Part shown: positions 861-62,298 of the stretch, piece by piece | Position numbering within the stretch: position 1 is the first letter of the stretch | Layout: each line of letters starts with the position of its first letter | Assembly (NCBI GenBank): GCA_001642005.1 | Contig: LWCA01000054.1 | Span: 1 to 64,000 of the forward strand | Source: Intoshia linei | Lineage: Eukaryota > Orthonectida > Rhopaluridae | Direction: 5' to 3' | DNA length: 64,000 nt | Made by a program: the position numbers and the translations under genes | Notes under the pieces: model-generated | What the model was told of the DNA's origin: nothing | Databases searched by the model: none | Seen by the model: only the letters and a program-made list of their open reading frames with translations

Positions 861-3800
861 ATGGTTTTGCCAGATCACGTAATTTTGGTTCACGATTTAC
901 CAGAAAAAGAATTATCTAAAAATCAAAAAAAGAAGATGGAGAGATATAATCGTAAACGCGAATATGTCATTTCTTTGAGGCACATTTTAAAAATATTGCT
1001 TATATAGTATTCTCTCTACATTTCGCCAGTTCGTTAGTAATCTACATTATCAACAATTTTTAGAAAATTTAAGTTTATTAATTGGACAGACATCTTAAAT
1101 TTACTAATAAAATGTAATTTTATATATGGTCAATAGTTGGTTACAGTTTCTCTATTTCGCCAAATTTTCTCATCTCAAGTCTTGACAGTGGCGAACTAGA
1201 GAAAATATTGTATTGAGTTTTATCGTGATATATCTTAAATTGGTTAACTTACATATAATTGTTAATATTTATAGGAAAAATGAGAGAGAACGGCGTAAAG
1301 TCAATTTGAAAAAACGGAAGGAAGAAAATCCTGTCGATGATTCCAAATGTCATAAAATGGAAGATTCTATCGCTAAGATTACTGTCGTAATTGATTGTTC
1401 GTATAATGACTATATGATGGAAAAACAAATCCGTTCATTGATTGTACAGCTACAGCACTGCTACGCTAGTAATCGGCGATCTGTTCAACCATTACAAGTT
1501 TATTTTAATATAATAATGATAAAATATGAGACATTTTTGTTATTTAACTTTATGACAGCAGTGAAGTAAAAAAGGTTAAGCGCAGCACTGGTTTAAATGA
1601 TTTGATTTATGAACATAAAAGTTATATTTTTAGTTATACATATCAAATTTAACTGGAAAAATGAATAAACTGATGCATGATTCTAAAGTTACCTTTGATA
1701 AATGGGATGTAAGTTTTATATCACTGAACAAGAACGGTCTTAATCAAAAATATATTATATTATAATTCAGGGTGGTCCGAAGCGTGTCCCGCGAGATAAA
1801 ATCTTGCTACCGAAAAATTGTTTTTTTTTTGGCTTCTCTCGCCATGATATAACTTGTAACATTTTTAATTAAAACACAGAAAAATGATTAATGATAAAAC
1901 CGACACGATAAATTACCCATTAATACCAATACTCCACCAATGTTTGAAGTTTTATGCTTTTTAAAGCAAAATACGGCATATTCAGATCGTTAATTAATAC
2001 AAAATTGTAATCATTAATTGTTAAGTATGTAATTTTTGTGGCCAGATTAATTAAGATTTTAAGAAGGTTGAGAACCACTATAAACTAGTTCAGCTTATTT
2101 TACCTATCTATTTAGGTAAATTATTCAAATGATCATTTCCTGGATATTTTTGAAAAGCAAGACATTATATATTTAACAAGTGACTCGGAAAATGTAATTG
2201 ACAAATTGCAAGATGGAAAATGCTATGTGATAGGCGGGCTAATTGATCGAAATAGACATAAAAATTTATGCCTCACAACAGCTCAAGATTTACAACTTTA
2301 TCATGCACGTTTACCAATTCCCTCTGATTTATTAACTACATCAACTGTTTTAACCACCAACCAAGGTTATTTTACTATTTACAATATACTATGCGAGCCA
2401 TTGTCAACGTGTGGTACGCGTTCCATTTTGTGATTCTTTTGGGAATTTTGGTGGCCCATGGTTATTTTTATGTAACACTAGCTTGAGTGTTATGTACTTA
2501 GTATAAACAGGAACTAGCACTGTCGAGGGCGGACTTTTACAATTTTACCAAAAAATAGATCCAATAATAAAATCTTCTTTCACATGGATCCGTCATATCA
2601 CATTATCTTTTCATTTAAAGTGAAATATTCCATCTTAATTTTATTGTTAATATTTGTGTAAAGAATTTTAAAAACAATTTTTAGACCCCATTTTTTTAAT
2701 TTATTAGAGAGATTGAGTACACTGTATAATCTTAAAAATAAAGTCAAAACAGTACAATCCTAAAAATTGTCATAAATAATTTAAATTCCAAAAAAAATTG
2801 TAAATACGGGTATTCAGTACATACCCTTTGCATCGATAAGAGATTTAATCGACGTGGCATACTATGAACGAGATGACATACACGACAAACTATAAAACTA
2901 TCCGGAAATGTAATACTCCTATTCAAACATCGTGTGTTGTAAGTTTCTTCTTTTTTCCTCTAGACTCTAGGCCAATGGCCAACTCTAAAGGTGACAATCA
3001 CACTTTATTAGTTTGCAATTCTAAACACTATTAAAATAATGCTATTTATTTTTATAAATATTTATTACTGGCTTAACTATACATTTCAATTAATAAATGT
3101 ATTATCTATTTTAGTTTAAAATAATTCATTATTTTAAACTGGGATTTTCTTTTGTACTCTACCAAAACCTCTCTTATATCCCAGACTAAATTAACTTTTT
3201 CATTGCAATTGTTGATAAACCACGATTCCAGGTCATCTACCGATTTGCAACATTGTTGAAATGTTATAATTCTAAAATATAGATTAAATAGTTGAATTTA
3301 AGCAGCTACTTATCGTTTTCAGGTATGGTTGATTTGGTACATTCATCCTCTTATTTTCACTGAATTGTTTTATGAATATATGATCAGATTCAGAAATTTC
3401 TTCATATATATTTTCAAATATAAAATCGATTTTGTAGGATGATTCGATATTAGAATTTTTTATTTCATTATTCCAACAATTGGAAATCGTCGTATTCGAC
3501 ACCTCTCTCCAAACCTGATTTATAGATAGCAGGGCCTCATAAACGTCTATTTTTTTATTAAATCAAAATGTCTTTCAGAATCAATATCATGTATGTTATC
3601 AAGTTCAAACAATATCTTATTTTTCGTAATGGATTTATATTTATCCTTGAATGCTTTTATTATACCTTGGTCTAAGGGTTGCAATTTCAAAAAAGGAAAT
3701 CTATGTTGGACAATTCTATTCCATAAAAATGCACTGGTGCGTTATCAAGTGTTAACAAAATTTTTCAATTTTTATTTTTGTATTTAAATTAAGTAACCAA

Positions 3801-4947
3801 TTGTTGAATATAACAGCAGTCATCCAAGCATTTCTAGAGTGAGAATATTCTACACTTAACTTTTTTAAGGTTTTTTGTTTTCCATTAAAGCATCTTGGAT
3901 TTTTAGCTTTACCAATAACCAATGGTGCTAATTTTTCTCCAGACATACTGGCACAAAATAAAATAGTTAACCTATCTTTATATTGTTTATAGCTTAAGTT
4001 AGTGTCATTATGTGCTACTAAACTTCTATTTCTGGTGCCTTTATACAGTAAACCAGTTTCATCACAATTAAATATATTGTCAGAATTATATTTTTTTAAT
4101 TTTTTTTCGTAAATAGGTTTAAAATTATCAATCAAACTTTCGGGTACGAAGCCTGACTCTCCTATCAAAAATTTTGATTTTATATTATATCTATTTCTAA
4201 AGGAATTCAGCCATTCGGTTGAGGCACAAAAATTAAATATATTAGCAGATTCGGCTAATTTCAAGGCCATTATTTTGAGACTATCGCCAGATATGGAATG
4301 ATGCATATGACGTCTACTAACAAACCATTTAAATAAAGTGCTGTCAATTACATTGGTTTTCAAAAGTTTACGTTGTCTTTTATTTCTGTTATCATCAATT
4401 TGTAAAAGTTTTTCCTTATTTGATAAGATTCTATTTATTGTACCTATCATTATTAATATTATAAAAAGCTTAAATATATTTACCTAACGAAATTTTAAAT
4501 TTAGTTGCCAGTTCCCGCTGTGAACAATGTGGATTCTGATCGTAGAAACAAATAATATCCTTTTTTTTCCTTTAAATTTAAGTCTACTCGTTTTCTTTTA
4601 TTGTTCATATTTACAATATAAAAAATAAAAAATCACGCTATAAAATGATAATATATTTGAATTGTCTTGGTATTCGAAAATATTTTTAGTTCAATGTTCA
4701 GATCGACAATGTTCAAATTAAAATTTTCTCATTGTATAGTAACCCTTAGAAAATATATCATAATTTGTTCAAAGTCGCAATGTTCGGATTATGCAGATTT
4801 GACTGTATATTAAGTAATTCTATATTAATTGTATCTTTGTATTATTTTTAATTTTTAGTTTTTGAAATACTAGTAAAAGTGGGAAATGGTGAAACCTGGT
4901 CAAATTCAATCAATACAATAATTCCTGCGAGAAAATTAAAGAAATGA
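861..4947 (+). CDS. TRMT10A: tRNA (guanine-N1)-methyltransferase, TRMT10A/B type (SPOUT)
   Basis: Methylates N1 of guanine 9 in tRNAs. Exons: 861 to about 961, 1275-1497, 1634-1708, 2116-2365 and 4859-4947. Exon 1 is lysine/arginine-rich with KELSKNQKKKMERYNRKRE, like the basic N-terminus of the family. Exon 2 has ITVVIDCSYNDYM and IVQLQHCYASNRRSVQPLQ, matching the LIIDCSFDHLM and QIQRCYAENRRALHPVQ blocks. Exon 4 carries IIYLTSDSENVI and the SAM-binding CYVIGGLIDRNRHK motif, followed by LYHARLPI. Exon 5 (FEILVKVGNGETW, then IIPARKLKK) matches the C-terminal FEIILEYLETRDW and ILPQRK. Exons 2-5 join in frame. The exon 1/exon 2 junction does not fit a GT-AG intron. The last intron (2366-4858) holds a Helitron piece and a broken Tigger transposon. 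Confidence 0.88.
2478..2800 (-). mobile_element. Helitron fragment in the last TRMT10 intron
   Basis: Read on the minus strand it ends ...AAGCTAG followed by T, the Helitron 3' terminus signature (CTAG|T), with a short hairpin-like stretch just upstream (GTTTATACTAAGTACATAAC). Its body matches the 9468-10621 copy, including the block around 2640-2790 with 'aaaaataaagtcaaaacagt' and 'caatcctaaaaattgtcata'. The other (TC) end is missing, so this is a 5'-truncated non-autonomous copy. Confidence 0.6.
3284..4608 (-). pseudogene. Broken Tigger/pogo (CENP-B/jerky-like) DDE transposase
   Basis: Minus-strand remnant of a pogo/Tigger-type cut-and-paste transposase. From 4608 downwards there is an N-terminal psq-type helix-turn-helix (HCSQRELATKFKIS), then a 41-bp intron (about 4440-4480), then a CENP-B-type second HTH (STLFKWFVSRRHMHHSISG). 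The DDE_1 core shows FNCDETGLLYKG, LTLDNAPVHF and LKLQPLDQGIIKAFK, so the three acidic positions are recognisable. The frame is broken by a one-base shift in a poly-A run near 4564, another shift near 3690 between the second and third D motifs, and a stop near 3550. A TIR-like end (CAGTCAAATCTGCATAATCC on the minus strand, outer edge near 4807 next to TA) marks the right border; I did not find the left one. It is antisense inside the TRMT10 intron and non-functional. Confidence 0.82.
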
Positions 4948-12754: not shown

Positions 12755-13335
12755 ATGGATGAAAAAACACAACATTTGATAGGTCGCATACCAGAACATA
12801 CAATGAACATTGGACCAAGAGATCATGATTTATGGGTAGATAGATTAAAGTCAGAATACATGTCAATTATAAAATATGTAGAAAATAACAAACAGGACGA
12901 TAACGATTGGTTTGAAATAGAATGTAACAGTGATGGCACCAAATGGTTTAATTATAATATTATATTCATGACGTTAATTTAATTTCAATTAGGTTCGGAA
13001 AGTGTTGGTATATTCACAATATGCAGCGTTACGAATTTAAAATGACATTTGATTTACCTGCTTTCTACCCATCAATTGCCCCAGAAATTTGTTTACCTGA
13101 ATTGGACGGAAAAACTGCCAAAATGTATAGAGGTGGTAAAATTTGTTTAACTGATCATTTCAAACCGCTTTGGGCTCGGAACGTTCCAAAGGTGAATATT
13201 TAATTTGTTGAGATTATATTTTGACTGTAAATTTAGTTTGGAATAGCCCACTGTTTAGCTTTGGGATTAGCACCTTGGTTAGCTGTTGAAGTGCCGGAAT
13301 TGGCGTCAAAAAAGTTAATTACTCCTGTTTCTTAA
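12755..13335 (+). CDS. UFC1: UFM1-conjugating enzyme E2
   Basis: E2-like enzyme that takes UFM1 from UBA5 by thioester transfer and passes it to substrates with UFL1; major targets are ER-bound ribosomes. Three exons (12755-12945, 12993-13191, 13237-13335) give 162 residues, against 167 in human. Nearly every block is conserved: [50 protein letters not shown], then [18 protein letters not shown], whose cysteine is the catalytic residue, and [19 protein letters not shown]. The introns are 47 and 45 bp; the first uses a GTTTAA donor. The start matches the family N-terminus. UFMylation is present in animals and absent from true fungi and microsporidia, which supports an animal source. Confidence 0.97.
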
Positions 13336-13532
13336 AAATTTATATATACTATTGTTTCATGTGTAAATAAAATTTACAAATTGATACAAATCCAAAAGTG
13401 TAATTAAAAAAATTCTGATTGTAATAATTAGTTTGAGGCAACAATCTTGATATTTCCAAGAAATTATTATTTATTTACTCCAACTACCAACTGATTATTG
13501 ATTATGACTTGGGGCATTAGAAAAATTTTTAA

Positions 13533-16500
13533 ATGGATAAAATTATTTTCTTCAATTTAATTTTTCTTTTAATATTAAATAATATATGCGTCTGCGATGG
13601 TAAATGTTTTTAATGTAATTTAAATTTTTCCTCGTGTAGCAAACAATTGCAATATTAATTTCTGTGAAAAATGCGAAAAAGATAGTTTAACTTGTTTATC
13701 GTGCAAAGGAGGGTATTTTTTCGACCAAGAAACTTTCAAATGTCAAAGTAATTATTTTAAGTATTAATTTGGTCAAAAATATTTAGAATGCATTAAAAAT
13801 TGCGACACATGCGGTTATGTTGATCATTGTAATTTTTTCAATTTTATAAATAAAAAGAACATTTGGTAAAATAGGTACAATATGTAATGTTGGTTTTAAA
13901 TTTAATTACCAATCTCGAAAATGTGAAAGTAAATTTTTTTGTACATTATGTATTTTGATTTCTTTATAAAGCTCTTAATATTAGGATGTGTTCCAAACTG
14001 TCAACATTGTAATGATAATAAAACATGTACTAGCTGTTTGTCCAAGTTTTACAAAACTACAGATAAATACATTTGTTTCGGTATTATGAAGGTAAACTTT
14101 ATAATAAATTTTTTAGCTTGTCCGAAAAATTGTAATCGTTGCAGCAATCCCACTGATTGTGTGGATTGTTTAAAAAATTTCTTTTTATTGGATCTAAAAT
14201 GCTATGGTATAAAATATGTTGTAGTTTATAATTTACAAAATAATGCAAATTTTTATAAAATATATGCATTTGTAGAATGCTCTGAAAATTGTGACATTTG
14301 TGAAAATGTTGAAAAATGTAATATATGCAAGTTTGGATATTTTTGGGACGCGCAAAATAAAAAATGTACATGTAATGTTTACGTAATTTATGGAATCAAC
14401 ATTTTACACTTTTTATGTTTTACTTTGAAATACTAGCTTGTGGAATCGGATGTCTCTCAGGTCAGTGTGATTTAAAGCTTGGATGTCTAAAATGTAAAAA
14501 CGGATACATGATTGATTTGCAAAAATGCAAAAGTATAAAAATTGACTGAATAATTATATTATAATATAATCATAAATACTGTTTATAACAATTAATAAAT
14601 AATCGAATATAAATTACTCTTATTAATAATTGTATTGATAACATTTGAGATTATTTAATATTACCTGTTTTCGAAATATTTTAAATGGCGCAATTTGCTT
14701 AGTCACAAATTAAAAATATTTCAATTTCATTTTACATTTGTTATATATTTTTTTATTATTTAAAAGAATGTGCAATATTGGAATCGCACAATTGTAATAC
14801 ATGTGTAACTAGCCAGTTCGGGAATATGTGGCATGGAACAAAATGCATTAGTAATTTAGTCTTTTAAATTTACAATTACAATTATAGAATGTTTGCAATA
14901 CTGTTCTAAATGTACTAGTTCAAATTCTTGTATTATAAATGATCAAGACATGTGTTTGGAAGATTACGCTTTTGATGACAACGCAAAATTATGCAAAGGT
15001 AGTTTTTTAATATATCGATTTCTGAGGCTAATTTTAAGCTAGGAATAAAAAATACTTGTTTGTTTCTACTGAAATAATTATTTTTTTGGGAATATTTCGA
15101 TCTAGTATATTTTATGTCATAGGCCGAACTAGGGAATTTCATTATTTCTTTTTTTATTTTCTAAATAATGGGTCATTTTGGGTTTTGACCGTGAAAGTGT
15201 CGATTTTTGAATTTTATCTTGCTTTATGCGTCAGAAACATATAAGTTGGAATTTTTATTTTTTAAATTTGTGAGACAGACAGTTTTCTTTTGACAGAAAA
15301 CACATTTTGAACAACTTTTACTTTATATTTATACATTATACAATCTGCATCTATACTATAATTATAATATTAGTTTGTATCAGTTTAATTACCGATATGA
15401 GTGGATTATACAATTATGAATCTAGTTGTTTGAAATGCAATGGGTTTTATTACTTGAATGGCATTTGCTCTGGTATATCCGTTTTATTAGAAATTAATCT
15501 GTTCTTATTTAGCGTGTACAACGGATCATTCAATTAAAGAAAAATGTCCATGTATTGATCGAGAAAATTTTTACACCGCTAAAAGTTTTTGGATAGAAAC
15601 AAACGTGTGTAGAGGTAATTTAATTTTTTTATTCTTTTATTTGATTCAAAATTGTAAGTTATTTATTGTGAAACATACATGGTTCAGAAGGTCTTGTCTG
15701 CCGTAACAAACGAAGACGAATGCAATTTTTGTGCTGGTTACTATTTCGATCCAACTTTGAAACAATGCAAAGGTATACTTTAATACAATAATACGCAATT
15801 TATTTACTAAGAGATCAATTATAACTAAAATGATAATTCATGGGCTAAAATTCATAGTGCATTATAATAAGAGTAATCAAAAAGGTTAAAAAAACTACCT
15901 AAATATTATAAATGGTAATTGTAGTTTTAAAAAAAATATAGTTTACGGCGATTGCCAAAATAGTTGAAATGCTTTTTTCAGAAAAGATTTTTAAATTAAA
16001 ATTTTAAATTAAATAATAAATTCTTGAACCTAACATGATTAATATTTTGATTAATTCTATCACAGATACTGGTTGGGTTTAATAAATTTAAAAAATAAAA
16101 TTCAATATTATAAAGATGAATACAAAATGTAAATGTATAGTATAATTACTCGTACAATATTAAAAATTGTATTTATTTAAAAATGCAAGCTAATTCCTAA
16201 GATTGGGGTTCAAAATTATTGTTTGATGATCGGTGCGATTCAAATTAAATATAGAAAAATTTTGATCAACTTTTGTTTATTTTTAAGGGTATTTTTTTAT
16301 ATTTATGACAGAGTTTCTAGATGTTAATTATCCCGAATCCTAGACGACTGCTACATTACTATTTCAAAAATCCTAGATTTATCCCACCATTAATAAAATT
16401 TAATAAAAAATACAATTTCAAGCCCTATGGAAAAATTGACTTTTACCGATATTTTTTTGAAAAACCCGATTTTACGAAACCTTATGAAAAAAATCCAAAA

Positions 16501-19500
16501 TAAAAAATCCAATTTTACCAAATCTTATTAGAAAAATCTCATATTTCAACCATCATATACAACTCCAATATTACCAATCGTTAAGGGAAATATTCTCTTT
16601 TCCCAATATCGTTTTGAAAAATCTTATGAGCAGTAATTTCCTAATCCAAAACCAAAAATAAAACTTAAAAATCTTACTATTGACTAGTATCAATCCTTTA
16701 AAGGAGTGGTTCCCAAAAATGTTTCGGGTGGATCACATTACTTTTTACTTTAAAGTGAATTATTCCATCTTAATTTTTTTTGTTAACACATTTGTGTAAA
16801 AGAATTATAAAAATAATTGTTATCCTATTTGTTTTATTTATTAGACAGAATGTGTGTACATTTTACAATATTAAAAATAAAGTGAAAACAGTCCAATCCT
16901 AAAAATTGTCATTAATAGCATAAATGCCAGAAAAAATAAAATTTTGTCATTTTCAATGATATAATATATTTTCGGTATCAATTTAATAAATACTTAAAAA
17001 TTCCAATTAAGTATCAATAATTAACGGAATCAGCACTTTATAAACATATTTAGGTGGATTTTACCAATACTGCAAAGGATTGTAATAAATATAAAAATGA
17101 TAATAACAAAGTTGTATTACTTTTAGTAATCGTTGTTGTAGTTTTAATTTAAATTTTAAACAAAAATTTTTGAAAATGAAATTTGAAATTTAAAAATTGC
17201 GTAGCTATAAAAAAAATTCCGAAGGAATGAATTATATAGATTTTCACCCATATTTCTTTATTGAAAATGTGTAGAGGTTCAATACACATTTTTTTTTTTG
17301 AAATTGTAGGATCAATATTTACATTTTCAATTTTTATTTTAATCGGATTTATTTAAAAAATATTGGAAATACTAATATTAATTGACTATTTTTCTACATT
17401 GAACCATTTATTTAGCTGTATTGTGTTTGGAATATTCAACAATAATTAAAAAAATAGAATGTGATGCATGCAGCAATTTATTTTATGATACAATAACTGC
17501 ATCTTGTAAAGGTATATTATAAATGGTTTTTATTCAATTTATTTTATCTTAAAGCATGGGTTCTTATCTTAGGGTGCCAGAAATTTATTTTATAAATATC
17601 ACTATAATAATTTTAAATTTTAATTTAATTTATTCGAAATTAAGTTTATTAGAACGGGCACAGAACAGTAAGTTACATGAGGGACAGTTGTTTTGTTATT
17701 TAAATGTAATTCTATTTAATTTTCAGAATTGACCTGTTCATTGGTTAATCTTAATTCATTGGAAAATACAACCACAAGAATAATTGCCATAAGTAAATGC
17801 AATGATTTCAAACACGGAATATATTTGGACCCAAAAACTAAATTAGCTAAGAGTAAACTCAATATTTCATTTTAATCATTATTTAGAAATTGACTGTCAA
17901 ATTTCCCTATTAACAACTGATAAAATTGAGTGCGAGTCATGTATAAGCTATTATTGGGATATATACGCAAATAAATGCCAAAGTAATGTACAAATTTGTT
18001 TAATTATTAACATTGATGAACAATTATTCTATTATTATTTATTACCTATTATAATTATATTATGTAATATTAAGATATTAATATAATATACATTCAAAAA
18101 CAACCTTAAAAAAGATAATTTTATTGTCAAAAACCCAGATTACTATTTTTTGTAAAAATGAAAACAGCCCGTGTATCGATTGAATACACATGTAAATTTG
18201 ACTTGGAAATTGACTTGGAAACTTTAAGCTGTACTAAAATTGATCAAAGAAATCTTTTTAGAAAAAATTAAATTAACCCAAGAAATGAAATGCATAAGAA
18301 TATGTGGAATCTTGATTCTAGAATGTGACAAATTTTTATTAAATTTATTATTTTTATCTTTTTGCAACACATTATATTTGAAGTGACACAGGGAGTATCA
18401 ATAATGTTTTTTTAAAATATAATTATATTTTAGAGCTATTGTGTAATAATCAACCATTAAATTCTATGGAAAAGTGTCAAGGGTGTAATAGATTGTATTC
18501 TTCAAAAAGTGGATCATGCTTTAGTAATTTACTATTTAATTCAGTATCCGACAACCAGGGAGGAAAGATTCATTATTGGGAAATTTAATTTATGAAATTT
18601 ACACTAAATCATTTTTCCGATTTTATCCCATTAGGTTAAAAATGTTCTTAACCTTTTTCCACTTGGCACCCTTAATTCAATAAAATTTAAGTTTAAAAAA
18701 TATAGCTTTGAAATAATTTTTATTCAAAAATTATCTGACATTTAAAACTGGTTTGGCACCTCAGGTTAAGAACCCATAACCTAATGTCTTTGACCAAAAG
18801 TTGACCAAAATTTTCAGTATTTACAACTATTTTAATCGAGTCACCCCTTTCAATATGGGTACGCGATATTAAGATTTAATAAATAAATTAATAATAAATA
18901 ATAAGATATTAATTAAGACATAATTGATTTAATTATAGAATGTCCTGATAATGCCATATCGTGTAACCTGTTTGAAAGCATTTGCAAGAATAATTATTAT
19001 TTTGATCAGAAAACTTGGACATGCATTCGTAAACAATCTAATTAATATTAAATATTGTATCAATTATTTATTTGTTTAGTTGCCAATTGTCAAGCTTCAG
19101 ATTTAAAGAAAAATTGTGTCAGTTGTCTCACATTTTATTGGAACAAGGAGAAATGCAATAGTACAATACATTCAATAAAATTTATATTTTACTTGTAGAA
19201 TGCCCCGAAAATTGTCAAGTATGCCAAAATTCAATTTCATGTGTTAGGTGTAAAACCAACTATGTTTGGTCTGCAGAAGATAATTCTTGTGTTTGTACGT
19301 TATATATCAATGCTTCATAAACTGGGTTCATATAATTTGTTTCTAAAGTTTTAAAAAAAATTTTTTAGTTTACAAATAATTTTAAATCTACTTAGAGTCG
19401 AACCTACCGAACAGGAAACCTCTCTTAGGATATCGACAAAGGTTTTTTAAATGGGCCTCATTTTTTCATAATTGAGCAAATTTTACAATTTTACAAATAT

Positions 19501-22500
19501 ATTGTATTTTAATCTTAAATTGTCAACTCTAGTCCGGTGCCAGAAGTTAGGGGTAAAGGTTGGTATGGCTACAATGCATTATGTATTGTTTGGAGAAAAT
19601 TTTTGATGACCTAATTTAGATTTTAAGGGATCCTGATTGGGTATTTAACATGTTGGGCTCGTTTCAGGGCATACTTTTTTGTAACTTATGTATTCTTTTA
19701 CAAATCATAATTAATGTTGGATATGTATTAGTGTGCATCTTGAAAGTAAAGGACGAGTGTGCTCAATGTTCAACGCCATTGGAACCATTTTATTTATCTG
19801 ATTTGCATCAAAAGTGTCAATGTAATCAAAATACAATTATGTACAATGTAAATTGTACATTATATTAAATTGATTGTAATTTCAATTTTTAAATAATCTA
19901 ATTAGTATGCAAACATGCAGCTATTGATGATATATTGACAGAATCAATGTGCCATGAATGTGGACCAATTAAATTAAAAACTGGAATATATTGGGATAGT
20001 TCTGTAGTACCGCGTTGTAATGGTAAAATATTATTACATGTACAATTTATTAAAACTTATTATAATATTATAATAGTATATATGATATATAGTTTATATA
20101 ATAATAGTTTATTTTAATAATGTATATTACTATATGGTATTAAGTACATAAGGGAATCAACTTTTTTAATTTTGTTGTTTATTACTTAGGTAGGTAGTTT
20201 TAAATAAATTTAAAATATTTTTTAAGCATATTACAATAAAAAATTTTAAAAAAAATTCAGAAGCAAAGTCAAAATAAATCTTTTTATACCCTACCACGAA
20301 AAAAGTATTAAAACTGGAATAACTACTTAGTACATCTTTTGTTTTTAAAATTCTTTACGAAAATGTTAACAAAACAAAATTAAGATGGAATAATTCTTTA
20401 ATTAATAAACTTTAAAGTAAAAAGTAATATGATATGATGGTTCCACCTGAAACAAGTTTGGGAACCACTTTTTTAAAGGATTGATAATAATGAATAGTAG
20501 AATTTTTAAGTTGGATTTTTGACGTAAATGTATTTTTTTGGTAGAATAAAAATGTACCCTCGGCAGAGCTACGTGCTGCTTGTACGTAGTACATAACTGT
20601 CAACCTAGTGTATTTATAACTAGCAATATTCTCAATAAATATCTAATAAAAAATAATAATTGAATTAGTGTAATTATCTCATTGGCCACTCGATTATTTT
20701 ATTATTTTTTTCGGTGATGTTGAAATATAACCTTAAATATTATTAAAATATTGTTTATAACCCAAACTTTTTTTGAGTGTTGTGCAGTATTATAGAAAAC
20801 GAATCCATGATATGAATAATACTCTTTTTTTTTTAAAAGGGGCATTTAATTTTTTGGCCCTAAATAACTCAATTTCTGAAAATGAAATTTACGATAAAAT
20901 ATCACTTTTGAAAAATTGTATGAGAAATTTGGTTTTTTTAATTCTAGGACTATTAATTTTTTGATTAAGCAGTAGAACCGACATAAAGACTTTACATCTT
21001 ATAAAAGTAAAGGATTGCTAGTATTTTGTAATTATTTATGATGGATATATAGCGAGTGGTCAGTGGCCACTAATAGAAATAATCTAATGTATTTTCATTG
21101 ACCAATTTCAATCAGTATTGTTAATATTCTGAAATTATTTAATATTGTACTTTTATCTAGGTTGTATTGATAACTGCTTATATTGTAATAAAACTGATAC
21201 GTGTATTGAATGCAGAACGCATATGTATTTTAAACCCAAAAGTGACGACGAAAAATCTGTATGTTTGGGTAAAAAAATATAAAACTTACAAATATTTAAT
21301 TTAAATTAGATTGTTTAAAAAATTGCAAAAAATGCAAAAATTCTCAAACATGTGATGAGTGTAATCAAGGATATTATTACAGTACACAAGACTCTGAAAA
21401 TAAATGCTTATGTAATTTTTATTATAATTTAACGCCTAAGTATTAGTAAGTTAGTACACTATCTCAATGATTAAAATTTAATATTTTCTTAAGGGTTGTG
21501 GAAACACAATTTTCCTGACAAAAATTGGACAAAATTAGATTAATAAAGCAGCATTTTTTTAATACGAGGTAGTGAAAAATTTTTACCGGTCTGCGAAATA
21601 ATTAGAAGTCAATTTATTGCTTTAATGAAAATTTAATGTTTCCTCGTAATTTCACTTTATTGGTCCGCGATAAAAAATAAAAATTTAAAATTTTAATTGA
21701 TAATTTATCACCATATAGTTACTATGTGATATACATCTGATTTAATAATTGCTTTTATATTAGCTTGCCCTCAGAATTGTATTTCATGTGCGAAGCCAAC
21801 GACATGTATTCAATGTAAATCACAAACATTTGCAGATTATGAAACTGGAGAATGTTTCGGTAAATTTTTTTAATTTACAAAAATACTTAATTAATTTACT
21901 ATTAATTAAATTTATTAACAAAAAAATAAAATAACATTTAATGTTTAGAATTTTTTATGTTTATTTTTAAACCCAAGAAATTTTTTTAATGATGTGATGT
22001 GACCCTTTTTATTAAGGGTCCACTTTAAATTGGATTGGAATTTTTCTCATAAATTTTTTTTTTCAATAATAAATTGTCATTTTTTACTGTAACCCTTATT
22101 TTTCGTGTAAATGAACAATGTTATAATTCTCAACATAATTTTTTTTATCATGTCTTTTCTTCTTTTTTGGCGAACATTCAGTTGAGCGATGTATTGTTAG
22201 AACGATATATCTTAGAACAACATAATCATATATTTTGCTAATTAATCATATTATTGATTTTTTCACATAATTTTTAAACATTTTTAAGATAATTTTGGGA
22301 TCAATATGTGGTAGGGTTTTTAAGGGAAGTTTTTTTTTAATACAATTTTTAAAAATTTTTAGGGGTAAATTTTTACCCTTTTAGCAGTAGGGAATATTTT
22401 TAACATTTTAAGGTTTTTCAAAATCTTTAAAAATTGCTTAAAAAAAAGCTTCCCTTAAATACCCTACCAAATTATTTTAGAAAAATCTTTAAAAATTGGG

Positions 22501-25500
22501 TAAAAAAAATTGTTCCCATTAAAACTCTTCAAAATATTTGTAGAAAAATTATTATAAAAATTTTTAAAAATTAGTTTAAAAAAAATTCCTTAAAAACCCT
22601 ACCAAATTTATCTTCAAAGTCTTTATAAATTTTCCCTAAAGTCCTCAAGTCTGAAGTGTGATATTTTGTTGATAAGTATTTCATAAGTACTTATTTATAA
22701 ATGTGTGCCGTTTTTGTAGATTACCCTTAAATTAGTCCCACAAAAAAAATTTTAAAAAATCCATAATATAATAAATTAGTATAATCGATGATTATGTTGT
22801 TCCATGATGTATCGCTCCAACAATACATCGCTCTAGAGAATGGACGTCTCTTTTTTAGCACGGTGACACTATCAAAATCTGAAATTATTTTAGCGCCACG
22901 GGATATACAAATATATATTTATTATTTGTTTATGTATTTAAAAAAACATTGTATAATGGGATATATTTTTTTTGTTTGAAATGTAGATTACTCTGTAAAA
23001 AAAAATTGTCATTTTTAGAATTCTATGAAATTGTAAATATTAAAAATAATCTGTTTAAAAAAATATGAAAATTTGCACTATATTATACTTTTTTATAAAT
23101 TTAGATTGCATTAAATATTGCAAATATTGTAACACAAACAATAAATGCACAACATGTGACAATGGATTTTATTTAATTTCAAATTTACAAGAATATGAAT
23201 GTGTCGGTAATAAAATTGGATATTATTAAAATTTATTAACATGTACATGTAAATGTAAATACAAGTACAATAAATAATTATTTATTATAATAAATACAAC
23301 AGTATTTAAGTAAATTTATTAATACAGCGAATGTACTTGTATTATTTATAATAAAAATTAAAATTAAAGCTTGCCCTATAAATTGTTCAACTTGTTTGGA
23401 GAAAAATTGCTTTACTTGTGATTTCGGTTATTGTTTAAATGAAGCCAATTTGTGTACAAGTAATTTTTTTAAATAAAATAAGTGTTATTTGTCTAATTGT
23501 CAGAGTCAAACCTAGCTATCTCGAGGCCATCGAAAATGAAAAATAGGCACTTAAAAAAAATTTTCAACAACTATTCATTGCGACATACAGCCCTAACAAC
23601 GTCTCTAAGGTTCTTCACTTGATATTTTGAATTTAACACACAAAATAGTTATGATATTCCAGAATAATATTTTTAATGCTTAATTTTAAAAAATGAAGGC
23701 CCCATTTTTCAAAAATTTCGCCGCCCCCCCCCCTTCCCTCACCGAAGAACGGTCTCGGTATGGTAGGTCGTTGCTGATAATAGTATTTGAATATTATTGT
23801 ACAATGTATATCCATACTACTTAAATTGTATGTATTTGTTGTAATAAAAAAATAACTTAATAATTAATTAATGACTTGTATATAATATAATTACATATTA
23901 TATCACATTTTACTTTATTTACACTTAATCAGAAAAATTTAGAAAATGATAATAATTGTAAAACATGTAAATACGAAAGTGGAATTGCTCCAATACTTTC
24001 TTGTACGAGCTGTTTCAATGGATATGAATTTGAAATTTGTAAAAGTAAACGTTTAAGTATACAATGTATAAATTATACTATAGTATTATAATACTAGATG
24101 TATAATATACATTGTATATATAGTAGTAAAATTTTAACTAGCTTTGCAGTTATGTACTTCGTACAAACATCAGTTAGCTCTGACGAGATCTACTTTTTAA
24201 TTTTAAAACGGATTTTTTTACTGAAAATTGAAATTTGAAAAATATTTGAAGATATTGGAAGATATATATTAAAAGTTATTTTTGACCGGCCATCCGTAGG
24301 ATTCTGCGGTTCACATTTTATCTCTAGATCAACTGGAATAATCTGTATCAGAATAAAAAATTTTTTAAATTCTACGAGTTTTAGTTTTCCGAGAGTAATA
24401 TTTCATATCAAATTGAATTTTTTACAAAACAAAAAATTAATTTATCCTTTTTTTAAAAATAAAATCAACTCTTGAATTTCAAAAAACCTAAATGCCAGGA
24501 CGTGTTTTACAATTATTAATATGTTCATAAATATCAACCTTAGAAACTTACATTTTCATGGCCATAACCACAAATTACCTTTTTTTTATAAATAAAAAAG
24601 TTATATGATTTTAATAAAACACATTTTAAATTTAAATTTTAAAAGATTAATTTCACAAATTGACGCTTTCACGGTCATAAAATCAACATAATATTTATTT
24701 TATTATTTGGTCATTATTTTTTTAAAACAAAAAATATGAAATAAATGTTAATTTTTTAATAAAACCGTAACACACAAACATTTAATTTATGCAATAATTA
24801 ATAATAATTAAAAATTTATAATATATTAATTAGAATGCCCAGAAAATTGCGATCTTTGCAACGATAATAATTGTATATATTGCGTAAAGGGTTTTTATTT
24901 GGATAAAACATGCTTTAGTAAATCTTACTTACTTTTTATACATTTTAACATAAAAGTAGAGTCTTTCTTATATTGGTAGACTCAAAATTTTAATTTTTTT
25001 ATTAAATCTACACAAAAATCACAACTTTTTGGGTTATCTTGTGTAAATGTTTTTAAACTTTAAAATTCTTAAAATCTCGTGTCACCATTGGTGACTCAAC
25101 AATACAAAAAATACAAGAACCACTTTTTTAATTGTTACCTTTGTAATAAAAAAGATTTGGACAATTTTTATACTATACATTTATGTGATAATTTAAAACT
25201 GTTAGAATGTGCCGAAAATTGCATCGAATGCAATACAGCTACAGATTGTGTTAAATGCAAAACTAGTGTAATGGTTTTCGACGAGTCATTGCTCAAATGT
25301 GTGGGTATGCTTTTTTTATACTATTTTTCAAAATGTTTTAATATGTTTAATAGAATGTCTTCAAAATTGTATCGAATGTGTCACTTTTAATAAATGCTTA
25401 AAGTGCTTTGATAGCTATTTTCTAGAAAATGATGTTTGCAAATGTTAGATTTTTTGAAATATATTTAAATAATTTTTCTGTTTATTCATTAATAATAAAA

Positions 25501-28344
25501 TAATCATAGTATAGCTTGTCCAATTAATTGCAAAAAATGCGAGAGCAAATCATCGTGTCGAGAATGTATAAAATATGGGATGAATTTTATTGAAACAAAA
25601 AATAAGTGTATAGGTAATATTTATCTTTATTAATATTAGCAATCTTGATTAGAATGCAGTCCAAATTGCAAAGAGTGTTACAACGATGAAAAATGTCTAA
25701 TTTGTGATGATTATTCTTATCAAGATTTTACACAAATTGATTCTGTTTGTTTAGGTATGTTTAAGACATATACTTATATATTTGTATATCCTTACTTATA
25801 TAGTATGCCACGCAATATTTGTTTGTGTGTGTGTTCCAGTTTATTTCAAAACTACAAGTCTTAGAATTTTATAAAGTCCACATTTCAATTACAGTGTTTT
25901 CCGAAGGATTGATAATAGTGAATCGTAGGATTTTTAAGATTCATTTTCAAAGTGAATTTATTTTTTTGGTATAATAAAAATGTGCCTCCGGCAGAGTTAG
26001 GTGCTATTTCCACATAACAGTCAACCTAGTTACATATATAGCGGTGTTTGCTATAAAGCAGGGCTGGGAAACTTTTTGTACTATCGACGTTATTTTTTTA
26101 AAGATTTTATAGATTCATTTAATAAATTCTGGGATACCGGTTTAGTAAATAAATGGTTACACAAACACAAATACATTTTTAGAAACTTTTACGTTACATG
26201 AATAAGGATGTGATATCTGATTTAGAGATTGCTGATTAATCCCACCATTAATAAAATTTAATAAAAAATAGCTTCAAAGAAAAATTGACTTTTACCGATA
26301 TTTTTTTGAAAAATCCGATTTGATTAAATTTTATCAGCAACAACTTCGTCATCCAAAACCCTAAATAAAAAGTCCAATTTTACCAACCTAAATTAAGGGA
26401 AAAATCACCTTTTTCTAATATTTTTTTTCAAACATCCGATTTGACCAAATCTTATGAACAACTTTGTAATCCAAAACCCTAAATAAAAAATCCAATTTAC
26501 CAACCTAAATTAAGGCAAAATCCACTTTTTTAAATAATTTTTCGAAAAATCCAATTTATCAACCTAAATTAACGAAAAATCACCTTTTTCTATTATTTTT
26601 TTAAAAAACATGATTTACCAAATCTTATGAGAAAAAACCTTTAATTTTGTCATAAATGTTATATATTTCATGTTTCCTTTGGGGTCCAAAAACATAAACG
26701 TTTTGAAATGGGGGTCCATACACTATTTGAATCGGTAACCACTGATCTAGATGCTTATTTATTTAGATACTTTCAATGGGACCCCGTGTCGCGTACTGTT
26801 AATTAACGAATTTTTTTCTTTCTCACAAAAAATGAATAAAAATGCATAATTAATGTCTACTCTCCATTTCAACATTTTACCACGAGATAGCCATTACAGC
26901 CAGAATATTAAATTGTAGTGTATTAATTTTATTTGCATTACTAAAAAAAATTTATCTTAAAATGTCAAAATTTCAAAGAACCACAAATTTTTCAAACCCC
27001 AATGCTGCGCGCATTCCGTTTGAGATCCACTGGTCTAATAATTAAAAATTTAGCTTGTAAAAGTAAAATTGATCATTGCAATAAATGCTTTGTTAAGGAT
27101 AATAATTTACTTTGTACCGAGTGCGAGAAAGGATTTACCACGAGAGATGATTTTAGAAGTTGTACTAGTAATTTTGAACTACTTAATTGAAAATTTTAAA
27201 AGTATTAATTTTACAATTTTATATTTCAGAATGTGAAGTGAGTTGTAATTCGTGCATTGATAGGCCATCAATTTGTTTAGAATGTCAAAAACATTACTTT
27301 CTGAGTTTGGATAAATCGTATTGTGGATACAAGCAATGCTATGAATGTAATTTCGAAAAAGATGACAACTGCAATATACCCTTAAAAAACCAAACATTGA
27401 ATGGATGTTTGCATGATTGCTCGGTATACCTTTATATAGACATTTCTAAAATTTGATTCTCTCTGAAAAAGTATAGAATTAACAATTACAGTTTATTAAA
27501 AATTAAGAAATGGCGTTACGAACATAAACTCTTGTACTTTATGTTACGAATAAAACAATTAACTAATTTAATATTTATCTAACCCTAATCACTTTTTAAA
27601 GACTCTTGACTTGACATTTTGACTTTAAAACGTAAAATAATCGATATTCAAGAGTAGATATTTTTTTAATGTTCAATTTGAAAAAAGGAGGGGGCTTTTT
27701 ACAAAAGTTTAATCGAGAACTCGTACAGAAAGGTCTCGGAGTACGGTAGATTCGGCACTGCAAAAATTACCACTAAAAATATGAATAATAAAATTTCTAT
27801 GAAAATACAGAAACTATAATACCCTTTTCTGGAGCCTCAACGAAATTATTGTATGATGGGTCTCATTTTCTCAAATTTCATAAATTATATTTTAATTAAT
27901 AAATTTATAGTTTAAATTCTAAAATGTTGAACTATCTTCTTGACCGGAAGAATCAAATTTCTGAGAATTAAATTCATGATATTTTTTTCACAATTTATTG
28001 ACATTGTTCGAGTTTTTGTGTGCAAAATTTAAAAAATTAGAATTATGAAATTATGTATTCGTCCATTTTTAGACGAAATCAATACTGGGCAATGTTGTTG
28101 AAAGATCATGCAGCACGTTTGATTGTACTGCAATTAACCTAAACGTATGCGAATTTAAAAATGAGGTAATGAAGGATTGATAAAAATAACCGAGTTTTAG
28201 ATGTGTGAGCACTGTTGCAGTTCACATAAATGCAATAATATGATTTCATCAGCAATGCATTTAAACGGGATTTACACTGCGAATTTTAACATTTTATTTA
28301 TAGAATTAATAATAATAAGTATATTTTTATTTAAGTGTGATTAA
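13533..28344 (+). CDS. Giant Cys-module surface protein: 33 furin/VSP-like repeats plus Ly6/quiver-like C-terminal domain
   Basis: Not a gene I recognise. Thirty-seven exons: 13533-13599, 13640-13747, 13787-13828, 13875-13928, 13985-14080, 14117-14206, 14276-14371, 14437-14532, 14767-14850, 14888-14998, 15374-15472, 15513-15614, 15659-15772, 17416-17511, 17727-17852, 17887-17982, 18434-18523, 18939-19028, 19080-19160, 19199-19294, 19732-19821, 19906-20022, 21161-21268, 21310-21411, 21764-21859, 23105-23206, 23370-23459, 23943-24044, 24834-24917, 25206-25304, 25354-25443, 25515-25613, 25653-25754, 27054-27167, 27230-27423, 28073-28165, 28201-28344. They sum to 3660 nt (1219 aa). Exon 1 encodes a signal peptide (MDKIIFFNLIFLLILNNICV). 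Each following unit is a 27-42-residue module of the form CxxNCxxCx(n)CxxCxxG[FY]...C, e.g. CPKNCNRCSNPTDCVDC; units 14-22 are more divergent. The last exons give a 10-Cys Ly6/uPAR-like fold: QCYECNFEKDDNCN ... VVERSCSTFDC ... CEHCCSSHKCNN, then a hydrophobic C-terminus (FNILFIELIIISIFLF), fitting a GPI signal or membrane tail. Long introns hold Helitrons and MITEs. Role inferred: secreted or cell-surface. Confidence 0.85.
15773..17415. mobile_element. Repeat-filled intron: hAT-MITE relative plus Helitron body
   Basis: Intron between exons 13 and 14 of the Cys-module gene. About 16230-16630 matches the interior of the 8310-8738 hAT MITE ('cccaccattaataaaattta'). About 16665-17395 matches the Helitron body in minus orientation ('aggagtggttcccaaa', 'gacagaatgtgtgtac', 'gtaggatcaatatttacatt'). 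Neither copy has both ends. No exon was found inside. Confidence 0.6.
20335..20608 (+). mobile_element. Helitron 3' segment
   Basis: Plus-oriented copy ending CATAACTGTCAACCTAG|T, with a hairpin TGTAC gta GTACA directly upstream and the family motif 'ctcggcagagct'. It is truncated at the 5' side near 20335. It lies in the long intron 20023-21160 of the Cys-module gene; 20780-21010 in the same intron is another internal Helitron piece. Confidence 0.68.
22184..22833. mobile_element. 650-bp element with about 45-bp terminal inverted repeats
   Basis: Left end GAGCGATGTATTGTTAGAAC and right end, read in reverse complement, GAGCGATGTATTGTTGGAGC. The match continues through a further CGAT.ATC..GAACAACATAATCAT. 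The interior contains AT-rich inverted blocks ('accctaccaaatt', 'tagggtttttaaggg'). There is no ORF. The family is not identified; exact borders and target duplication are unclear, since similarity may start at CATTC a few bases further out. A partial relative lies near 55890-56060. It is in the intron between exons 25 and 26 of the Cys-module gene. Confidence 0.6.
23501..23810. mobile_element. MITE-like repeat family ('gtcgaacctaccgta' type)
   Basis: Begins 'cagagtcaaacctagctat' and ends 'ggtctcggtatggtaggtcg', an imperfect inverted repeat. Related sequences occur near 19396-19560, 27590-27760, 41170-41385, 46797-47030, 54780-54870 and 62890-63050 ('cagtgtcgaacctaccgta', 'ggtctcggagtacggtagat'). 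No coding capacity and no convincing target duplication; superfamily not assigned. Confidence 0.45.
24138..24790 (-). mobile_element. Helitron copy in a Cys-module intron
   Basis: Minus-strand end ACTGCAAAGCTAG|T with hairpin TGTAC gaa GTACA upstream, then 'tagctctgacgagat' in the same register as the reference copy. The body includes 'ttgaccggccatccgtag' type units, and the far end has a decayed 'aaccgtaacacacaaacatt' tract. The TC end is not recognisable. It sits in the intron between exons 28 and 29. Confidence 0.5.
25789..26029 (+). mobile_element. Miniature Helitron, 241 bp, both termini intact
   Basis: Begins A|TCCTTACTTATATAGTATGC, continues through a GT-rich tract and 'acaagtcttagaattttata', then jumps to the 3' segment ('tttaaga', 'ggtataataaaaatgt', 'ggcagagttaggtgc') and ends CATAACAGTCAACCTAG|T. 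It is an internal-deletion derivative of the 1154-bp family, and it confirms where both ends are. It lies 34 bp after exon 33 of the Cys-module gene. Confidence 0.75.
26058..26745. mobile_element. Relative of the 8310-8738 hAT MITE
   Basis: Left end CAGGGCTGGGAAACTTTTTG is a typical hAT terminus; the right end reads, inverted, CAGTGGTTACCGATTCAAAT. The interior shares 'cccaccattaataaaattta' and several degenerate 'ccaacctaaattaagg' units. The flanks do not form a clear 8-bp duplication, so it may be a chimera of two insertions. Confidence 0.5.
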
Positions 28345-29353
28345 ATTTAATAATTACTACAATATTCATTATGGCTTATGTATCATTAATACAGTATGTA
28401 TATTATCAATAAATTTCATTAATATTGGTGTTTATCCAAATGTTCATTTCATATTATACATAATATTTATCGCAACATAATTAGTGTCAAAGTAGATCTA
28501 CCAAATACATATAGTATGGATTGGAGTTAATCCAATTAATTTATTTTATTTCTCAATTGTAACAATACAAACAAATATCAGTTAAAATTAATATATTTCG
28601 ATATTATCATTACATTTTTAAGTTTGCCGCACATTGTATTATTTCTGTAAAGGTCAAATTAATTTATAACGTTATTCATCATATTCAGCGTGATATGTTT
28701 ATTTAATATTGGTTTTAAAAATGTTCAAATACATTAAATACAAGTAATATTGCCTTTTGATTTGTAAAACAATTTATTTAAAACCGCCTTCATTGATTAA
28801 TGTTGTTATTATACTTTATAATTGAATTTAATGGACACGCCTTTAAGTAAACTAATTGAACATTTTGACGATGAATTCATAAAATAAAATTTTATTTTAT
28901 AATCACATCAAAATTAAAAGACATAAAAATGGAAATTGGCATGCAAGTAAATGGAATTAATTCACCTTTTAATTCATTTTTATTCTAAAAAATAGTCAAT
29001 TCGTCAAACATTTCAATGAAACATATTCAAAAAAGCTGGGTGGTTTTATCTAAACGAACATATATTAAAATTTTATTTAGTTTTAAATAGTTAGTATAAT
29101 TACAATGCTGGTTTTTTTAACTTAAAATTTAATTGACTTTTTGTATTTTAGAATAATTAACAGTCCAATATTAAAAGTTAATCAGGAATTTACAAGGAAA
29201 AACTGTAATTTTAAGAAAAAAGGTTGTTTCGCACAAAAAAATAAAATATATGATATAGCTGATGCCGGTGATATAGTATATAGTTTATTTTCAATTTTAT
29301 ACTGGGAACTCAAAATTTGCTGGGCACACTGGTTGAGAAACAATTCACTAGTG
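28345..29353. other. Spacer after the Cys-module gene
   Basis: AT-rich DNA between the stop codon of the Cys-module gene and a hAT MITE. I see no coding exon, RNA gene or recognisable repeat. It must contain the 3' UTR and poly(A) signal of the upstream gene; AATAAA-like strings are common here and cannot single one out. Confidence 0.5.
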
Positions 29354-40861: not shown

Positions 40862-43800
40862 ATGTCACTAAGATCTATGCCAGATTCAGTGGTACTTAAA
40901 TATGAAATTTTAAAAGAAAAGTATCAACTGGTATGAATAATAATTTATTTAGAATTTCTAATATATTTTACTAATCCAAGGAAATGAATATTAAATTTTC
41001 TATTGCGATGAGTATTTGTAATTGTACATTGTACAATATTCATATGTATTCATCGGCAAAATGTGTATATGATGCCGTTTGAATAGTTTTTGGAGAATTT
41101 CTAGTTCGCTAATGTTGAGAGTCCCAACATGGGACTTAATAATTTTGTTATAAAGAAAAGATGCCTGGGTATGATCGGCTCGTAAATAATCATCGAATTC
41201 CCTGTCAACAATAGACCCATAAGGAGAGTTGAACCTTCAAGCTCGAGGGCCCCGAAAATGAACATACACAATTTTTGGATTTGGAAAAGTAAGGCCTTTT
41301 TTAAGAAAAGTAATTTTACAAAAATTCAACCACGAAGATGGCCTAGTAGTACGGTAGGTTCAGCTCTGCTTGTATACATCCACGTGATCGTCATGTAACG
41401 GGTTATAACATAATGAAAAAAATAAATTTTTATTTAACTTTGATCATAGTTTAGTTTCATTTTATTCAATTACTAGAAATTTTACTGATTTTAACCAATT
41501 ACCCTAGTTTGAATCTTAATGATACTTTAACTCATCGTTTATTCCAGGGGTTCCCACACTTTTGATACGGCGTCCCGGTAATAATTACAAAATTTATCGC
41601 GGACTACTAAAGAGATATTACTAGACAACATTAAAAAAATTTATACGAAAAACGTAATAAATTTACTTATAATTACTAAATTAATTTTTTCAAAATTATT
41701 TCGCGGACTGGCATTTGGGAAACGCTGGTTTATTCATTCCACCATGATGATGTTATCATCTACAAATTGATTTTCGTCCTCATTTTCAATTTGTTTTATT
41801 TTAGTAAATGGAAAACTACTGTAAATTGTTCAGACATTAACTAATATAAATTTAATAATATTACGAGACAAAATAATTTTGGAATTATGTATACTCTATA
41901 AGTGGGTCCATAAACCGTTGACTCATGAACCCCTGTGAAAAATATAATTTGTAGATGTATTTAAAATTAATTATTATTACAATATTCCTAAACCTAGATG
42001 TTTGAAAATTTTCATGAACTCTTCTTGAATATTTTGAAAAAGGGTGGTTTGAGATTAATCAATTTAAAATAATTTAAAAATTAAAATGATAATGGTAGCG
42101 ATTAATTTACAAAAAATAAAATAATACAGATACAAAACAATTCTTCAATATTTTATTTCTATTCAAACTCTTAAAGAAAACCCAATGGGCATGCTAAATT
42201 GATTTGTTATAAAAAGCTTAATAAAGTGGTCAGTGACCACTTTTAAACCATCACGCACCCATCTATTTTTTTTGATTATTTATAATAAAGTCAATTATAT
42301 ATTAATAATTTGTCGAGTTATCGCATACCAAGAATCAAAAACGTATTTTCAATTAAAGAATCGCATCATTTGTTATTTATTTATAAATTGATATGAAGAA
42401 AATTTGTTTTTTTGAAATATATTTTATCGTTGATGAAAATATTTATCTCTAAAACTACATCCAATTAAAAAATTTTGCATAAATTTGTATGGAGATACAT
42501 AGATCCGTCTATTAGATGGGTACAACATTGTACAATATACATGAAAAAATAATTTCTTTTTTCCGAAACCCAATTTCAGAAACACTGAATTTGATTAGTA
42601 ACGTTATATAATTGCCACGTTTATGCGTCGTTGACAAATTATCAAATTATTATAGAAATTAGTACTGTTGATGTTAACTTTTATGCCGCAATCTAAGTTT
42701 ATATATTTAATTTTCCTTAATTTATAAATGAATGTTTTATTATTGTGTACTTATTTAGTTATACAAACAATATCAAGATGTCAAATTAGCACTAGAATGT
42801 AAAATTGAATCAGAAAAAAACCTCAAAGTATTTTTAATTAAAGTTAATACTGTGGTCGCTCTCAAAACTGACCACTTTTAAATTTTCAATTAATAATAAT
42901 TTTTTGGTAGAGATATGATGGTCCGCCCTCGGCAAGCCTAGGTACTTTTGGTATAAAGTAAATGACAGTCAAGCTAGTTATATTATATATTTATGTTCAT
43001 TATATCGTATAATAATATTCATATTTATTACATGAAAAATACGATTTTTGTCGTTTTCAGATCAATCCCGTCACAATTAGCATGTTAATTACTGATTTTC
43101 ACGAATAATAAAGATTTTAAAAAATATACTTGTAAAAATCGTATTTCAAGAGGAAAGTGATGTATAATACGTTTTGTGTCGTTTTCAGCTCAATTCCGTA
43201 TCATTTAGCATGTTAATTACTCATTTGCACGAATAATAAAGATTTAAAAAAATATACTTGTAAAAATCGTATTTTAAGAGGAAATTGATGTATAATACAT
43301 TTTTTGTCGTTTTCAGCTCAATTCCGTATCATTTAGCATATTATTTACTCATTTGCACGAATAATAAAGATTTAAAAAAATATACTTGTAAAAATCGTAT
43401 TTTAAGAAAAAATTGATGTATAATACGTTTTTTGTCGTTTTCAGTTCAATTCCGTATCATTTAGCATGTTATTTACTCATTTGCACGAATAATAAAGATT
43501 TTAAAAATTTAAAAATTTTTACTCGTAAAAATCGTATTTTAAGAAGAAATTTATGAAAAATACGATTTTTGTCGTTTTCAGATCAATTCAGTCACAATTG
43601 GCATGTTATTAAATATTTATAAGATAATTTAATATGTTGTAGTCCAAATTACAAAACATTCAACAAGAAAAGGAGAGCCTTTCTTATTTAAATAAGAGTT
43701 TTCTGAAACGAATAGAAATTATGCAAACCTCACTACTAAACAATAAAAATGCATTACCTATTTCCACCGATTCGGTATTTTTATACATTAAATAAATTGG

Positions 43801-50166: not shown

Positions 50167-50251
50167 ATGTCGATATAATATAATTAATTTGGTTACTATA
50201 TAAATGTAATTTAAATTGAAACTTTATTGGATTGTCACGAGTAAAATTTCA
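50167..50251. promoter_or_regulatory. 85-bp divergent promoter region IMP4/PWP1
   Basis: Only 85 bp separate the IMP4 ATG (minus strand) from the PWP1 ATG (plus strand). Both proteins act in ribosome biogenesis, so a shared bidirectional promoter is a reasonable inference. The sequence is AT-rich ('cgatataatataattaattt'); no named element is certain. Confidence 0.5.
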
Positions 50252-62200: not shown

Positions 62201-62298
62201 TTGTTTTTATCTTTTTTAAGAAATCATGGATTACTCAGCGACAAAAAAATTTATCTGACAGTACTTGCCCGCATTGTCTAGCTAAAATTACAATCTAA
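53233..62298 (+). CDS. LTN1: Listerin, E3 ubiquitin ligase of ribosome quality control
   Basis: Binds 60S subunits carrying stalled nascent chains and ubiquitinates them with NEMF. Ten exons (53233-53316, 53435-53539, 53584-53861, 53908-54073, 54124-54312, 54350-54519, 55033-55168, 58133-61966, 62015-62182, 62221-62298) sum to 1735 residues (human 1766). The N-terminus aligns with the conserved 60S-binding domain: ALEKLELNLKCIIKDE, FLHTWSNLFRKY, DNAATILALLQVHKHLCLYI and YIIGYWFISFQS, like LAPYLKSLMGYWLMAQCD. The long middle is HEAT/ARM-like helices, mostly in one 3.8-kb exon. The C-terminus is the RING: CLICFSYFDQSRRKYP, CPQC, LYHQDCL, KSWI and STCPHC, matching CMICFSVI...CRTCKKKFHSACLYKWF...STCPLC. 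Intron 7 (55169-58132) is filled with Helitrons. Confidence 0.93.
55169..58132. mobile_element. Repeat-filled LTN1 intron 7 (Helitrons and a TIR-element relative)
   Basis: About 55890-56060 resembles the 22184-22833 TIR element ('tttgctaattaatgatatta'). About 56080-57100 is a plus-oriented Helitron body ('tttcacggtcaaaaaaacac'). About 57470-58020 is a minus-oriented Helitron whose 5' terminus is intact at 58020 (A|TCCTAACTTATATAAAGTA). 55380-55480 has a further 5'-end-like tract. No coding exon detected. Confidence 0.58.

Follow-up and report, generated by a model that had tools for sequence, protein, structure and literature searches.

The stretch of Intoshia linei DNA analysed here (64,000 nucleotides, hereafter the window) raises the question of whether one animal gene combines a long array of cysteine modules with a Ly6-type domain and a hydrophobic tail, and, if so, which known proteins its product resembles and what it could do. 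A sequence-only reading had proposed such a gene and attributed it to a probable parasite. The source is an orthonectid, an animal parasite of simplified morphology whose genome is small (34.7 Mb), and the observation of a cysteine-module and Ly6-type gene is confirmed by the analysis below.

Gene structure and the deposited record

A single gene on the + strand spans positions 13533-28344, with 37 exons encoding 1,219 aa, among them 187 Cys (15.3%) and 76 CxxC motifs. GT-AG boundaries are present in all 36 introns, of which 34 are in phase 1 and two, both within the C-terminal cap, in phase 0. The median intron length is 70 bases, 15 introns exceed 200 bases and the longest reaches 1,643. This number of introns looks unusual, as ~4.9 introns per gene are reported for Dicyema and a similar value is said to hold for I. 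linei, whose median intron is 57 bp (PMC6543705, in excerpt). The model was obtained from a Cys-weighted exon search run between the start and stop of the sequence-only reading, which gave 42 exons (1,388 codons with the stop counted); refinement by eye followed, in which spurious exons were removed and others added or trimmed. The counts of the earlier reading (37 exons, 1,219 aa, 33 modules over the same interval) were known at this stage, and the agreement between the two models is thus not blind.

We counted stop-free phase-1 stretches bounded by AG and GT and containing at least five Cys. The gene region holds 25 starts (22 distinct ends) of such stretches on the + strand and none on the - strand, and the remaining 49,188 bases of the window hold one on the + strand and none on the - strand. 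In 200 first-order Markov simulations the mean was 0.07 and the maximum 2, which rules out an origin of the Cys exon-like stretches by chance or composition.

Exon 1 (13533-13599) carries the start codon and a predicted signal peptide (MDKIIFFNLIFLLILNNICVCD...), the prediction being based on hydropathy, with a 12-residue Kyte-Doolittle mean reaching 3.18, and on an N-terminus identical to that of the deposited protein. Downstream of the stop codon, a polyadenylation signal AATAAA lies at 28408-28413; a second AATAAA is found at 13366, upstream of the gene.

A homology search returned the gene as the hypothetical protein A3Q56_00828 of I. linei (phylum Orthonectida), which one source labels 'EGF-like domain-containing'. 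The record holds 1,171 of the 1,219 residues in five identical blocks, retains some intron-derived stretches, and likewise connects exon 1 with the first two cap exons. Exon 37 is its main absence: the last exon is swapped for sequence near 29923 (the deposited model reaches 29960), and neither CEHCCSSHKCNN, which ends the Ly6 domain, nor the hydrophobic tail is included. We take exon 37 as right because all eight aligned caps (see below) terminate in the form that it gives; the deposited last exon near 29923 is probably wrong. With the last exon missed, the cap end and the anchor are therefore invisible in this record.

Several other features were observed in the window. Directly upstream of the gene lies a gene for UFC1, the UFM1-conjugating enzyme (12755-13335, limits by eye; PF08694 with E 1.3e-35 on one exon). 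An open frame at 3755-4483 on the - strand has Tc5-type HTH and DDE_1 domains, and we take it to be a pogo/jerky-like transposase. A WD40-repeat protein, PWP1-like by eye, is encoded in one open frame at 50240-51346; 28 Pfam families match this frame, and the best 25 of the 28 are mostly WD40 or beta-propeller types. At 58133-62281, a 1,291-codon open frame is followed by a RING-like piece, with Pfam UBC_like scoring 23.4 bits against a cut-off of 27; presumably it resembles listerin (LTN1). A tandem array with a unit of ~128 bases, 4.4 copies and 90% matches occupies 43038-43608.

The cysteine-module array and its relatives

The array (13640-27324) comprises 33 modules of ~31 residues each, ~1,080 residues in total, encoded by exons 2-34 and the start of exon 35. 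Six Cys are present in 19 modules and four in 11, while single modules have two, five or seven; the 4-Cys modules dominate the central block and the 6-Cys modules sit towards both ends. Each module corresponds to one phase-1 exon, except module 2, which is spread over exons 3 and 4, and the introns of the array lie at module boundaries with this one exception, located inside module 2.

The only Pfam family reported for the array is VSP (PF03302), which matches the last seven modules at 23 bits (E 4.3e-5), below the gathering cut-off of 31.4; in three proteins of the I. linei family described below, it scores 23.0, 19.3 and 5.6 bits. The full window protein matches no Pfam family at E up to 1, an NCBIfam scan gave no match, and the last seven modules compared with the PDB gave one match at chance level. 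A search of the genome with PF03302 returned no match, the positive control being equally silent. The resemblance to Giardia variant surface proteins that the sequence-only reading had noted is thus real at the level of the profile score, and it extends to the very high Cys content, CxxC throughout, a hydrophobic C-terminus and a gene family. The Giardia proteins have a near-invariant C-terminal CRGKA and are encoded by 303 vsp genes, of which one is expressed at a time (PMC2996952, in excerpt). In contrast, CRGKA is absent from all eight I. linei tails, the window gene has 36 introns and a Ly6-type cap, and the cap-bearing loci that we identified number at least nine. Membership of the Giardia VSP family is rejected on the sub-threshold score together with the absence of CRGKA.

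The second likeness suggested by that reading, to furin-like repeats, did not stand: the three proteins scanned matched neither a furin-like nor an EGF family of Pfam at E up to 10, and with the full-protein scan this removes furin/EGF membership. Small tandem disulfide modules are common to the array and to furin-like/EGF-type animal repeats, which are also encoded by phase-1 exons, as in I. linei. Phase-1 exons that each encode a single module are a typical feature of extracellular proteins in animals.

The homology search gave eight matches besides the gene's own record: three from ciliates (Pseudocohnilembus, Tetrahymena, Paramecium), one from Entamoeba and four unnamed, none of them named as an animal protein. 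In ciliate Ser and immobilization antigens, periodic Cys repeats precede a GPI signal and the genes form a family. The I. linei protein likewise has periodic modules and belongs to a gene family, and its hydrophobic tail after an invariant Ser may correspond to such a signal. The ciliate blocks are of 55-100 aa with 6-10 Cys, compared with ~31 aa and mostly 4 or 6 Cys here, and a Ly6-type cap is not mentioned for them in the excerpted text (PMC4136848). The list of matches could be read as horizontal transfer of the array from a ciliate, followed by its fusion to a resident Ly6 gene. We consider this highly improbable: identity is low (24-31%, across 29-55% of the query), the one-module phase-1 exons point to an animal extracellular protein, and the absence of animal matches says little, because the search requires shared 5-residue words and also missed the other I. 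linei paralogues.

Cap domain and hydrophobic tail

The array is followed by a domain encoded in three parts: the second part of exon 35 (27325-27423; GYKQCYEC...GCLHDCS), which opens it; exon 36 (28073-28165), its middle; and the first part of exon 37 (28201-28239; CEHCCSSHKCNN), its end, missing in the deposited protein. We recovered whole caps from eight loci of the genome (contigs C969, which is the window, C1010, C13, C588, C581, C358, C99 and C770) and, in the stretch of C463 examined, the first cap exon of a further one, which gives at least nine cap-bearing loci. Splice sites in the cap are GT-AG in C969, C1010, C13, C588 and C581. The C358 cap is free of introns, and in C99 and C770 it is ambiguous where the middle cap exon begins.

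The alignment of the eight caps has 13 invariant Cys, 12 of them inside the cap, and every cap has a CxxC start and a CC....CN end (CxxCCxxxxCN being invariant). Outside this framework the caps differ strongly, with 27-37% identity to the window cap. Compared with all PDB sequences, the eight-cap profile matched LYPD1 first (E 0.0026) and then CD59 (E 0.0095), the only two of 22 matches with E below 0.01. Among the 22 matches at E up to 10, 17 are three-finger proteins, a class to which we assign LYPD1, CD59, LYPD6, GPIHBP1, short neurotoxin and activin receptor from their molecule names, and the other five are COE1 and Notch 3. A reversed-sequence control gave five matches, none among those three-finger proteins, with a best E of 0.15. 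In the printed alignment of the cap with LYPD1, 11 of the 12 Cys share a column by eye and one is displaced by three residues. A single cap searched alone against the PDB gave two matches at chance level.

The Pfam results were weaker: QVR (PF17064) was reported in one of the eight caps (E 0.01), UPAR_LY6 in none of them, and PF00021 gave no match across the genome, its positive control being equally silent. The QVR profile found four other places in the genome, none of which is a described cap. Quiver-type Ly6 places above the Pfam cut-off are located at C416:37560-37826 (-) and C957:7075-7425 (+), on contigs where no family member was found. Overall, the alignment and the PDB profile support the assignment of the cap to the Ly6/uPAR domains, of LYPD type. 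The sequence-only reading had described a 10-Cys domain of Ly6/quiver type; its Ly6/uPAR class stands, the Cys count is 12, and quiver is one weak option beside LYPD1, the best solved relative.

LYPD1 and LYPD6 are small proteins. They have the same 12-Cys domain, CxxC start and CxxCCxxxxCN end as the I. linei cap, which differs in being placed at the end of a ~1,080-residue array. In humans, Lypd1 and Lypd6 act as modulators of neuronal receptors (PMC11595613, in excerpt), and the I. linei proteins might be receptor modulators of this kind, the array serving as a long spacer. This is very unlikely in our view: LYPD1 is the closest solved structure, but such strong divergence outside the Cys is unlike a single conserved ligand surface.

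The remainder of exon 37 (28240-28344) encodes a small-residue region (ISSA), the hydrophobic C-terminal tail and the stop. The hydrophobic C-terminus noted earlier for this gene is present in all eight paralogues; the best 15-residue hydropathy is 2.60 in the window gene and ranges from 2.01 to 3.04 across the eight. Within a few residues of the CN, all eight caps have an invariant Ser, mostly in an IS-type stretch. A hydrophobic end after an invariant Ser is probably a GPI-attachment signal. Note that the tail may instead be a transmembrane anchor, as the last 15 residues contain Lys in five of the eight tails, one of which also has Glu and Asp.

A paralogue family and its possible role

Cap and module queries, followed by inspection of the stretches fetched, found the architecture at other loci of the same genome. 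Besides the window, related loci are present on contigs C358, C1010, C588, C99, C581, C463, C512, C28, C238, C13 and C770, with decayed-looking copies on C1055 and C487 and weak matches to the family queries on C1070, C599, C86 and C612. In the stretches fetched, module parts on C512, C238 and C28 are not accompanied by a cap; these parts may belong to the described genes or to further ones. Some exons of C1010 hold more than one module. A second N-terminal-like module exon lies 3' of the C770 cap (C770:20391-20498, +), which suggests that this contig holds two family members in tandem.

The paralogue on C358 is nearly intronless: an 840-codon frame with a hydrophobic N-terminus and modules is followed, after a gap of ~1.3 kb, by an uninterrupted 585-codon frame with modules, cap and tail. 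It is likely an old retrocopy or a product of intron loss, with one intron within a module; short, degenerate, T-rich repeats fill the intron-like gap (C358:11244-9958, -), whose position seems to be within a module. Since modules, cap and tail stand in one 585-codon frame, array and cap are one protein, which answers in the negative the possibility, raised by the sequence-only reading, that the cap exons form a separate gene. The window model is built on genome sequence, and a prediction artefact joining a signal exon, modules or Ly6 exons from separate genes could be imagined. We regard it as extremely improbable, given the C358 frame, the recurrence of the order last module, cap and tail at eight aligned loci, and the link between exon 1 and the first two cap exons in A3Q56_00828; separate genes for array and cap are ruled out by the first two of these.

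Between the window and C358 proteins, 393 of 1,041 aligned residues are identical, of which 161 are Cys, leaving an identity of 232/880 (26%) at the other positions. The family thus keeps its Cys framework while the residues between Cys diverge. In a tree of the caps, branches were very long and none was starred, and we therefore do not draw the history of the family from it. The strong divergence between Cys, the number of cap-bearing loci (at least nine) and the two decayed-looking copies would be expected of a true variant coat, in which paralogues are expressed singly or by stage and switch under host pressure as in Giardia. Such a system nevertheless appears very improbable here, as the repertoire is small compared with the 303 vsp genes of Giardia (PMC2996952, in excerpt) and the caps, with their low identity to the window cap, provide no near-identical common end.

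The order of the modules is partly shared between paralogues. Compared with the window, 6 of 11 paralogue sets exceed all 300 order shuffles, C1010 scoring 2,026 where the highest shuffle reached 1,334; these are the six sets with at least 13 modules, whereas sets of 6-10 modules (C99b, C581, C512, C238, C770) do not. Compared with C1010, 5 of 10 sets exceed all 300 shuffles (C13, C28, C99, C99b, C512), and C588, C463, C581, C238 and C770 do not. In these tests C99 and C99b are pieces of one contig, the C1010 module list was split by hand, and only paralogue exons of 22-45 residues with at least three Cys were used. For 18 of the 33 window modules, the best matches in C1010 follow one another in order, compared with a random mean of 8.3 and a maximum of 13 in 2,000 draws. 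A closer match in the partner protein than within the same protein was found for 18 of 33 window modules, but for only 14 of 37 C1010 modules. Much of the array order therefore seems to predate the duplications, although many modules resemble those of their own protein more.

A partly kept module order befits a fixed part more than a shuffling antigen, and the proteins could be structural parts of the free-swimming orthonectid, belonging to its microvillar cuticle or extracellular matrix and having no function at the contact with the host. The microvillar cuticle of orthonectids is of annelid type (PMC12249979, PMC6543705, both in excerpt), and large disulfide-rich arrays suit matrix proteins. 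The anchor-type tail at all eight loci suggests tethering to a cell instead of a free matrix polymer, and the Pfam scans showed no matrix domain; we consider a cuticle or matrix role possible but rather unlikely.

On the observed gene structure in the genome, the shared architecture, the sequence-level similarity of the cap and the type of tail, we lean towards an I. linei family of GPI-anchored, disulfide-rich surface proteins, an animal counterpart of the Cys coats of protozoa, that would likely be part of a resistant outer coat. The signal peptide would direct the putative membrane-tethered protein to secretion, the ~33 small Cys modules would form an elongated ectodomain, the Ly6/LYPD-type domain would be its membrane-proximal cap, and the C-terminal signal would be replaced by a GPI anchor. 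The sequence-only reading had named a candidate host-interface or coat molecule; we infer that the proteins would most likely reside in the coat of the tissue-dwelling plasmodium or in that of the ciliated sexual animals. The orthonectid life cycle includes a plasmodium, which lives and feeds inside the host's tissues, and a free sexual generation, and orthonectids have a microvillar cuticle (PMC12249979, PMC6543705, excerpts). Both the architecture and the pattern of the family would suit a surface coat of either plasmodium or adult. No description of this family was found in titles and abstract openings on Intoshia, orthonectids, Ly6 or Cys-rich surface proteins, although the 2016 I. linei genome paper may mention it; the terms 'cysteine', 'surface protein' and 'Ly6' are absent from the main text of PMC6543705.

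A bolder reading, which we hold to be unlikely, is that a VSP-like variant coat arose independently in an animal: duplicated exons would have given the array, a Ly6/LYPD domain would have become its membrane-proximal cap, and a lineage-specific paralogue family, including a nearly intronless member, would have diversified where the tissue-dwelling plasmodium meets its host. Coats of Cys modules are known from protozoa (Giardia, ciliates), and here such modules occur with a three-finger-type cap at no fewer than nine loci in an animal parasite. If these proteins coat the plasmodium, they would offer specific candidates for the way in which an orthonectid confronts its host, and protozoan and animal parasites would have converged on such coats.
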